From a virus, in IMG/VR virus record IMGVR_UViG_3300018059_000023, positions 1-42,419 of that record: a stretch of DNA of 42,419 bases; one strand, written 5' to 3'. The position numbers and the translations under genes were made by a program. This document shows, in pieces, positions 15,883 through 37,786 of this stretch. Positions within the stretch are counted from its first letter, which is position 1; the number at the start of each line of letters is the position of its first letter. The notes beneath the pieces are model-generated. The model had not been told where the DNA came from and did not search any database. It saw only the letters and a program-made list of their open reading frames with translations.

Positions 15883-16275
15883 TCAGTCTTCAAGTGTTGT
15901 GGAATGTGTTTCGTAATCCCACACCCATCTTTTACCGCCGTTTTTTACAAACAAGTAAGTCTGCCCGTTGCTATCCTTGGTGGCGTTGTAGAGAGAGTGC
16001 CCCTCCTGATAGTAGAGGGAGATGTAATGTCTCTCTCTTTCACACAGTAACTCCTTGGCACATTTCTCAATCACATCCGCCGTAAACACATCGGCTCCCA
16101 TTTTTTGGAAATCTTCCAGTAAGCCAGTGTTGCCATGCTTCCCTGTTACCAGCTGACTAACATGACCCGCCCACCTATATGGAATATTGGTTGATTGCCC
16201 TATGTAAATCCTTCCGTTCTCGGTGTTGGTAATTTTATATATTCCACATATCGGTAATAGATCTGATAATTTCAT
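15883..16275 (-). CDS. GIY-YIG endonuclease (homing-type) in a promoter-RNA cassette
   Basis: 130 aa from ATG 16275, with GGAGG six bases upstream. The GIY-YIG domain covers about residues 8-95. It shows GIYKITN (11-17), IYIGQS (23-28), an Arg at 34 and the metal-binding Glu in CERERHYI (about 79-83), then YNAT. The C-terminus (about 100-130) is a short aromatic tail, possibly a target-recognition remnant. The open frame reaches 16470, but the upstream part is a structured leader with its own promoter. The family includes homing and free-standing mobile nucleases. It interrupts an otherwise tightly overlapping early operon, consistent with insertion. The leader matches that of the unrelated HNH-AP2 gene at 37643. 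Confidence 0.88.
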   Translation of the reverse strand: MKLSDLLPICGIYKITNTENGRIYIGQSTNIPYRWAGHVSQLVTGKHGNTGLLEDFQKMGADVFTADVIEKCAKELLCERERHYISLYYQEGHSLYNATKDSNGQTYLFVKNGGKRWVWDYETHSTTLED

Positions 16276-16403
16276 TACTGCCTCCGAATCAAAAAGCCGC
16301 CTACCTGTTGTTTCCACGCGCTTGTCACAGTCACGGGAGACGCATACAGATAGACGGCTCTTTGGGTAGAAACACAAAGCGCCTCCGAACGTGACTGTGA
16401 CAA
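16276..16403 (-). ncRNA. Pseudoknotted leader RNA of the GIY-YIG gene
   Basis: Minus-strand 5' leader. A 14-bp perfect stem (16390-16403 with 16322-16335) stacks on an 8-bp stem with one wobble (16379-16386 with 16336-16343), capped by a 35-nt loop. Loop bases 16355-16359 (AGCCG in RNA sense) pair with CGGCT at 16295-16299. That partner lies outside the stem and 12 nt before the Shine-Dalgarno, forming a pseudoknot. The order, the GGTAG-N-CGGC block and the T-run before GGAGG are shared with the HNH leader at 37644-37772. It could control translation of the nuclease, or be a catalytic or guide RNA of a mobile unit. Confidence 0.75.
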
Positions 16404-16407
16404 AGTT

Positions 16408-16436
16408 ATTGTAGCACATTGGCGTGTCACTTTCAA
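16408..16436 (-). promoter_or_regulatory. Sigma70-type promoter of the GIY-YIG cassette
   Basis: On the minus strand, TTGAAA (16436-16431), 17 bp spacer, TACAAT (16413-16408). The predicted start is at about 16402, exactly at the base of the leader stem. The -35 box overlaps the end of the upstream gene. Confidence 0.65.
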
Positions 16437-37184: not shown

Positions 37185-37643
37185 CTAGAAATTCGTCCTT
37201 GCAAATCTACCGTAATACTTCCTTGCCGCTTCGTCGTACGCGCGGGCGGCGTCGATAGGGTCTTCGAAGTAGCCAATTTTTAAACGTTTCCCTTGAACAG
37301 ATATTTGTGCTCTAAACTTCTTGTCTCGCTTATCCCACACCACGCCCTTGTACCCGATGGTGTTATTTTTGTGCTTGCCTTGATTAGCCATGTTCTGGCT
37401 CTGTGTGGCAACTCGCAAGTTATCATCCTGGTTATTCAGTCCGTCGCCATCGCGGTGATCCACCAATATCTTCGGGTCAGTCACGCCCATGACAAACCGA
37501 TGAAGGAACATGTTGTCACTACCGCGTCGAACATACCAGCGATCTTTTATCCACACGGCGCGCCAGGTGTGTTGGATTGCTTGATTGTATTTTCCGTCAC
37601 TTATCTTTGCAATCATTCCGTGTTTCAGAGGTATCTCTTTCAT
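37185..37643 (-). CDS. HNH-AP2 endonuclease in a promoter-RNA-terminator cassette
   Basis: 152 aa from ATG 37643 with GGAGG directly upstream. The HNH motif spans about residues 46-85: LHRFVMG (His48), ILVDHRDGDGLNNQDDNLR (Asp62-His63, Asn75) and SQNMANQ. The AP2 DNA-binding domain spans about 97-150: IGYKGVVWDKRDKKFRAQIS, GYFEDPIDAARAYDEAA, YYGRFARTN. This is a classic mobile HNH-AP2 homing-type nuclease. It sits alone between a TM protein and scaffold with its own promoter (37778-37786), structured leader and terminator. The leader is homologous to that of the unrelated GIY-YIG gene, which makes the cassette, not the nuclease, the common unit. Confidence 0.93.
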   Translation of the reverse strand: MKEIPLKHGMIAKISDGKYNQAIQHTWRAVWIKDRWYVRRGSDNMFLHRFVMGVTDPKILVDHRDGDGLNNQDDNLRVATQSQNMANQGKHKNNTIGYKGVVWDKRDKKFRAQISVQGKRLKIGYFEDPIDAARAYDEAARKYYGRFARTNF

Positions 37644-37772
37644 GATATCCTCCAAACAAAATGCCGACTACCAGCCATCCTAGTTTCTTGTCACAGTTGC
37701 TAGGGCGTGTGCTGATAATCGGCAGTTTGTTAAGATGAATAAATACAAAACGCCCAAAGGCAACTGTGACAA
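37644..37772 (-). ncRNA. Pseudoknotted leader RNA of the HNH-AP2 gene
   Basis: A 13-bp perfect stem (37760-37772 with 37688-37700) plus an inner 5-bp stem GGGCG/CGCCC (37751-37755 with 37703-37707) close a 43-nt loop. Loop bases TGCCGA (37724-37719 in RNA sense) pair perfectly with TCGGCA at 37667-37662, just before a T-rich spacer and the GGAGG. Stem start TTGTCACAGT, the pseudoknot position, GGTAG-N-CGGC and the distance to the start codon all match the GIY-YIG leader, while the inner stem and loop have diverged with pairing kept. Confidence 0.75.
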
Positions 37773-37777
37773 TCTAG

Positions 37778-37786
37778 ATTATATCA
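37778..37786 (-). promoter_or_regulatory. Extended -10 promoter of the HNH-AP2 cassette
   Basis: TGA-TATAAT on the minus strand, an extended -10. The predicted start at about 37772 is the first base of the leader stem, as in the GIY-YIG cassette. No convincing -35 is seen. Confidence 0.6.

Follow-up and report, generated by a model that had tools for sequence, protein, structure and literature searches.

Two genes for non-homologous endonucleases in the window, by which we mean the whole 42,419-nucleotide stretch of viral DNA analysed (IMG/VR record IMGVR_UViG_3300018059_000023), are preceded by RNA leaders of the same layout, and these leaders belong to a family whose members have the order of helices, the spacing and the leader length in common and share almost no helix sequence. 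The element is best explained as a promoter plus 5'-leader RNA of about 120 nt that acts in cis on the gene behind it, and it appears to provide phages with a kind of built-in expression control not described so far. The leader structure itself is well supported. Copy 1 lies in front of a GIY-YIG gene and consists of the following features.

16403–16273, minus strand: leader of copy 1 as a whole
16408–16436, minus strand: promoter, with -35 TTGAAA at 16436–16431, 17 nt, -10 TACAAT at 16413–16408 and an extended -10 TGC
16390–16402, minus strand: 5' arm of helix s, TGTCACAGTCACG, opening at the predicted start and pairing with 16335–16323
16379–16386, minus strand: 5' arm of the inner helix s2, GGAGGCGC, 8 bp with 16343–16336
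16366–16374, minus strand: 5' arm of helix a, TGTTTCTAC, pairing with 16317–16309
16346–16364, minus strand: 5' arm of helix b, CAAAGAGCCGTCTATCTGT, pairing with 16308–16290
16323–16343, minus strand: 3' arms s2' (16343–16336) and s' (16335–16323)
16309–16317, minus strand: 3' arm of helix a, GTGGAAACA
16290–16308, minus strand: 3' arm of helix b, including the U-tract 16295–16291
16281–16285, minus strand: Shine-Dalgarno sequence GGAGG
15883–16275, minus strand: GIY-YIG endonuclease gene, 130 aa (Pfam GIY-YIG, E=5.7e-10)

The elements of the RNA thus follow each other as s (13 bp), s2 (8 bp), a, b, s2', s', a', b', U-tract, Shine-Dalgarno sequence and ATG. A preliminary description of this DNA had assigned to the GIY-YIG gene a TTGAAA-17-TACAAT promoter of its own and a stacked stem of 14 and 8 bp; the promoter is present at 16436–16408, the stem was found as s with 13–14 bp (16403/16402–16390 with 16335–16323/16322) plus s2 with 8 bp, and the Pfam match agrees with the identity proposed for the gene. 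The first pair of s lies at, or at most one base from, the predicted start at 16402. A pseudoknot between the loop and a segment next to the Shine-Dalgarno sequence (AGCCG with CGGCT) had been described as well. This pairing exists but is much longer than stated, forming helix b/b' of 19 bp in copy 1 (CAAAGAGCCGUCUAUCUGU, 16364–16346, with ACAGGUAGGCGGCUUUUUG, 16308–16290) and of 14 bp in copy 2, and a further helix a/a' of 9 bp (UGUUUCUAC/GUGGAAACA, 16374–16366 with 16317–16309), which crosses s, had been missed. The features of copy 2, in front of the HNH-AP2 gene, are given below.

37772–37641, minus strand: leader of copy 2 as a whole
37778–37786, minus strand: extended -10, TGATATAAT
37760–37771, minus strand: 5' arm of helix s, TGTCACAGTTGC, pairing with 37700–37689
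37731–37737, minus strand: 5' arm of helix a, CATCTTA, pairing with 37682–37676
37711–37724, minus strand: 5' arm of helix b, TGCCGATTATCAGC, 14 bp with 37675–37662
37689–37708, minus strand: inner arm ACGCCC (37708–37703) and s' (37700–37689)
37676–37682, minus strand: 3' arm of helix a, TAGGATG
37658–37675, minus strand: 3' arm of helix b (37675–37662) and U-tract (37661–37658)
37649–37653, minus strand: Shine-Dalgarno sequence GGAGG
37185–37643, minus strand: HNH_3 and AP2 endonuclease gene, 152 aa (Pfam AP2, E=5.3e-10; HNH_3, E=1.4e-6)

The claim that this leader repeats the layout of copy 1 holds for the order of the elements, with a helix a/a' of 7 bp, but not for the promoter, as no recognisable -35 box lies upstream of the extended -10. 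A GGTAG-N-CGGC motif noted before is common to the two window copies but is not a feature of the family. Judged by their sequence both promoters are of the sigma70 type, with the predicted transcription start at the base of the stem s/s'.

As had been expected, further homologues exist: 23 more distinct leaders were found in 17 other IMG/VR phage records, giving 25 well-defined distinct leaders in 18 records with one to three per record, and a leader on the minus strand of L132 is likely the 26th. An exact-pattern scan of IMG/VR with the stem sequence returned two true members and two chance matches, later scans with the -10 box added and the stem relaxed gave more members, and a script checked the matches for a start codon and for b as a crossing helix. 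Loose pattern matches such as L001, L004 and L106 and most of the early scan matches were discarded, being without helix b and the start geometry. Inverted repeats of the TTGTCAC/GTGACA type, which might be arrays of operators or iterons, are clustered near pattern matches in L001, L004 and L242 and lie outside the leader family. A covariance model (R1), built on helix s together with sequence, matched L305 in the phage of L022, L306 in that of L002, L304 in that of L152 and a second leader in L249, all of them second and third copies inside phages already holding a leader. A descriptor without any fixed helix sequence matched 19 times in the 2.30 Mb of DNA that had been fetched and not once when this DNA was reversed. 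A relaxed version, applied to the window and the member records (0.62 Mb), gave 0 rows after reversal and 27 before it, of which 21 are recognisable leaders (one duplicate pair counted) and the lowest-scoring look like chance, the true members L003 and L128 scoring below its limits. As the descriptors match the real DNA but not the reversed DNA, the leaders are not products of chance.

The view that no described family has such a layout agrees with Rfam 15, which gave no match for the window at the gathering threshold and just a chance microRNA match for four member loci at E up to 1. In a protein-led search no relatives of the HNH-AP2 gene were found, and the 24 relatives of the GIY-YIG gene showed none of the leaders. 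Cultured phages gave no DNA match to the leaders, the stretches fetched from S-H1 and XX1924, the nearest helicase relatives, contain none, and one strict-pattern scan of prokaryote genomes returned no member and a single chance match. Protein matches are mixed as to host.

Each of the three helices crosses the other two, their arms being arranged as s-a-b-s'-a'-b'. The base of s lies 115–130 nt from the start codon in 23 of 25 leaders, the discriminator between -10 box and stem measures 5–6 nt in nearly all of them (5 being typical and 6–7 occurring in few), and the predicted start falls within 1–2 nt of the base of s, again in nearly all. In many members b abuts the 3' strand of s/s2 with 0–2 nt between them and a' abuts b' with 0–2 nt, as if s, b and a were joined at one junction. 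Two layouts can be distinguished: in type I, to which both window copies belong, a U-rich stretch precedes a and a short A-rich linker connects a and b, and in type II a follows directly after s with 17–29 nt from a to b. Apart from U-rich or A-rich stretches, no conserved unpaired positions were found in the leaders.

Compensatory changes maintain the pairing of all three helices, and they do so in the RNA sense. Covariation of the paired bases had been named as a test. In helix s, 90.3% of the cells are paired, 62 cells differ in both partners, and a covariation score of 0.513 stands against 0.116 for shuffled and at most 0.11 for slid alignments. Its first five pairs (UGUCA) are invariant in the alignment, the searches having required UGUC(A). 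This constancy is partly a search bias, since leaders found without that requirement carry UGUGAUAG, UGUCUAAGG or UACCACAACG there, and TGTCAC as an obligatory motif was rejected, as L305, L306 and the L249 leader at 1723 are without UGUCA. Helix b/b', which served as recognition criterion for most members, has a mean score of 32.8 against 16.7 for cross-pairings and exceeds the 95th percentile in 23 of 25 leaders. For helix a/a', never used in selection, the mean is 15.7 against 9.7 in the control, a value reached in 0 of 20000 permutations. A gapped helix alignment with lax penalties had merged a and b and was replaced. The b helices, picked on Watson-Crick pairs only with all other pairs penalised alike, contain 31 G-U and 4 A-C pairs (p = 3.5e-6), and therefore it is the gene-strand RNA that is under selection.

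The same rewriting can be seen between orthologous loci. L002 and L133, with flanks 74–89% identical, match in their promoters, a-b linkers and Shine-Dalgarno regions, while s2, a and b are rewritten with the pairing kept. A second orthologous pair is L211 and L249, with 76% identity over 2.4 kb, and in both pairs the leader has been inherited in place. The replication proteins encoded at L002:3723-4469 and L133:653-1393, from one metagenome, are near-identical in their C-terminal part and differ in their N-terminal part. The sequences suggest recombination directly behind the leader in this pair.

Nuclease genes (GIY-YIG, HNH-AP2, HNH or NUMOD4-HNH) lie downstream of 14 of the 25 leaders, in support of one structured leader being common to non-homologous nucleases. 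Pfam confirms nuclease domains in 12 of 25 (GIY-YIG, HNH, HNH_3 with AP2 or NUMOD4, and T5orf172) and reveals no IscB-type architecture; L003 has a truncated HNH-AP2 start, and L152 is zinc-ribbon HNH-like as judged by eye only. Replication-initiation, helicase or methylase genes follow in 7 of 25, namely replication initiators in L002, L133 and L132, DNA helicases in L134 and L131 and DNA methyltransferases in L150 and L305, and the remaining genes encode proteins of no recognised function. Because initiators, helicases and methylases also carry it, the leader is an expression element and not a part of the nuclease, and the initial name, structured-RNA endonuclease cassette, is too narrow. 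In L022:588-1142 a leader and its HNH gene stand directly before a replication-initiation-like gene, unlike in L002 and L133, where the leader sits directly on the replication-initiation gene; it is possible that the leader was captured by either gene.

One leader and its nuclease are found inside another gene. At L052:3974-4704 the leader and an HNH-AP2 gene interrupt a P-loop ATPase-like gene (GSHDTGKT, identified by eye), which gave no PHROG match; no intact relative was found in cultured phages. The stump ahead of the -10 box codes for the same 18 residues as the restart behind the nuclease gene, apart from two differences, and 12 of the 18 codons differ synonymously (12 of 14 changed codons). 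As the match of the stump to the gene stops just before the extended -10, placing the left end of the cassette at the -10 region, promoter, leader and nuclease probably entered together. The simplest reading of these sequences would be that the cassette brings a recoded 5' end, which restores the gene and removes the cleavage site. Among the members tested such a recoded copy of the target gene was seen in L052 only. In L003:7864-7938 the leader is followed by only 25 codons of an HNH-AP2-like start (MKEIQLSQGKVS), probably a decayed cassette.

As mechanism we prefer a co-transcriptional attenuator, with a probability of roughly 0.45. In this model s/s', with a/a' as an H-type pseudoknot, would form once transcribed and enclose b in its loop, and the terminator-like b/b' with its U-tract would become the more stable nested fold only after b' has emerged. 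The race between holding s/a and forming b/b' would then set the amount of read-through into the gene, so that wherever the element is located nucleases and replication genes would be expressed in metered amounts and from a promoter of their own. The attenuator is favoured because of the U-tract and the energy order of s and then b. A T-run of three or more ends b' directly before the Shine-Dalgarno sequence in 24 of 25 leaders, so that a GC-rich b helix followed by a U-tract precedes the gene, and in many leaders an A-rich strand lies opposite this tract. With s' just transcribed, s is part of the nested minimum-energy fold in 25 of 25 leaders, and in the full leader b is part of it in 23 of 25, the two states differing by about 4 kcal/mol (mean -4.2); pseudoknots, however, cannot be scored by nested folding, and the length of b would account for part of its preference. 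Most terminator/antiterminator pairs overlap in sequence, whereas the arms of s, a and b are separate, and any competition between s and b would be topological. Also against an attenuator, the hairpin loop of b/b' with 26–45 nt is long for a terminator, the U-tracts are short (3–6) in many members, and helices that share no sequence and often abut with 0–2 nt suit a coaxial pseudoknot with both formed.

This last point favours coexistence and thereby the main rival explanation, which is possible though rather unlikely. Here s, a and b would all be present at once in a single compact structure, protecting the 5' end against pyrophosphohydrolase, RNase E or RNase J and leaving only the U-rich stretch and the Shine-Dalgarno sequence open, so that the mRNA would be long-lived. 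The position of the predicted start, the short discriminator and the freedom of the helix sequence would fit such a stabiliser, and a pseudoknot is also present at the 5' end of the T4 gene 32 mRNA, which is described as more stable than any other T4 mRNA (PMC3014915), but the U-tract after a GC-rich helix and the near balance of the s and b states would be left unexplained. Attenuator and stabiliser may both be true in part. We regard it as unlikely that the leader is an operator whose s stem or pseudoknot is bound by a protein, of phage or host origin, which like gp32 on gene 32 mRNA would repress or activate translation: UGUCAC/GUGACA recurs in most members found, but at a frequency biased by the searches as described above, and the downstream genes are unrelated. 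The inner arm could pair with the Shine-Dalgarno sequence in L003, L052 and copy 1, but such pairing exceeds the control in only 2–3 of 21 leaders, and sequestration was rejected as a general feature. A riboswitch is unlikely as well, since the leaders have no conserved ligand-binding core.

The preliminary description had offered the RNA as a functional part of a mobile unit or as a common expression switch. The first idea, that the RNA helps to move the nuclease unit in the manner of an omega-RNA or an intron, draws support from the L052 cassette with its recoded gene start, weakly from the L003 remnant, and from the 14 leaders before nucleases of several unrelated folds, and is nevertheless improbable in view of the seven leaders on replication-initiation, helicase or methylase genes, the inheritance in place in L002/L133 and L211/L249, and the lack of a guide-like or conserved core. 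These seven leaders make the common expression switch the better fit. Chance or DNA-level inverted repeats such as operator sites, to which the TGTCAC repeats in the unrelated contigs L001, L004 and L242 might point, are extremely improbable given the empty reversed controls, and the covariation and strand tests exclude them for the family as a whole.

RNA structure at the translation start of phage homing endonuclease genes, free-standing ones included, is known from the RBS-sequestering hairpins of I-TevI, mobE and segB, which are local, lie over the Shine-Dalgarno sequence and silence read-through transcripts (PMC3014915). The leaders differ in their generally free Shine-Dalgarno sequence, their 5'-terminal multi-pseudoknot, their own promoter and their presence on non-nuclease genes. 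T4-type gene 32 mRNA also has a pseudoknot in its 5' leader upstream of the start codon, a single small H-type one bound by gp32 and serving one gene (PMC3014915), in contrast to the leaders, in which three long helices cross and a U-tract is present, and which serve many genes. With intrinsic-terminator attenuators and riboswitches, which fold differently early and late and carry a GC-rich helix with a U-tract ahead of the gene, the leaders share the latter and the predicted order of folds, but they have no aptamer core, non-overlapping helices, free helix sequence and no Rfam match. HEARO/IsrB omega-RNAs are structured RNAs adjoining mobile nuclease genes and, as stated before, are different: the leader is shorter, forms the 5' end of an mRNA and accompanies GIY-YIG, HNH-AP2 and non-nuclease genes instead of the IscB/IsrB family. 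The L052 unit resembles the yeast WHO elements, free-standing endonuclease units that replace the 3' end of FBA1 (PMC7282813), in logic only, the L052 cassette probably likewise bringing its own copy of part of the target gene. In L052, the one case seen, it is a recoded 5' end, in a phage and with an RNA leader.

In summary, we tentatively suggest that these leaders could represent a new class of regulatory RNA whose members have nothing but their topology conserved. Three mutually crossing helices, beginning at the first nucleotides of the transcript, would act as a sequence-free kinetic switch or 5' seal, and the RNA would serve as a portable expression device of mobile nucleases and early replication genes in phages for which no cultured member was found. 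Structured leaders are usually detected via conserved sequence, and this family escapes sequence-based searches and Rfam, as it retains order, spacing and pairing with almost all of the paired bases replaced. It ties promoter position, RNA fold and terminator-like geometry together on unrelated phage genes, offers a natural set of rewritten pseudoknots for studies of co-transcriptional folding, and suggests a testable route by which free-standing homing endonucleases may bring their own controlled expression.
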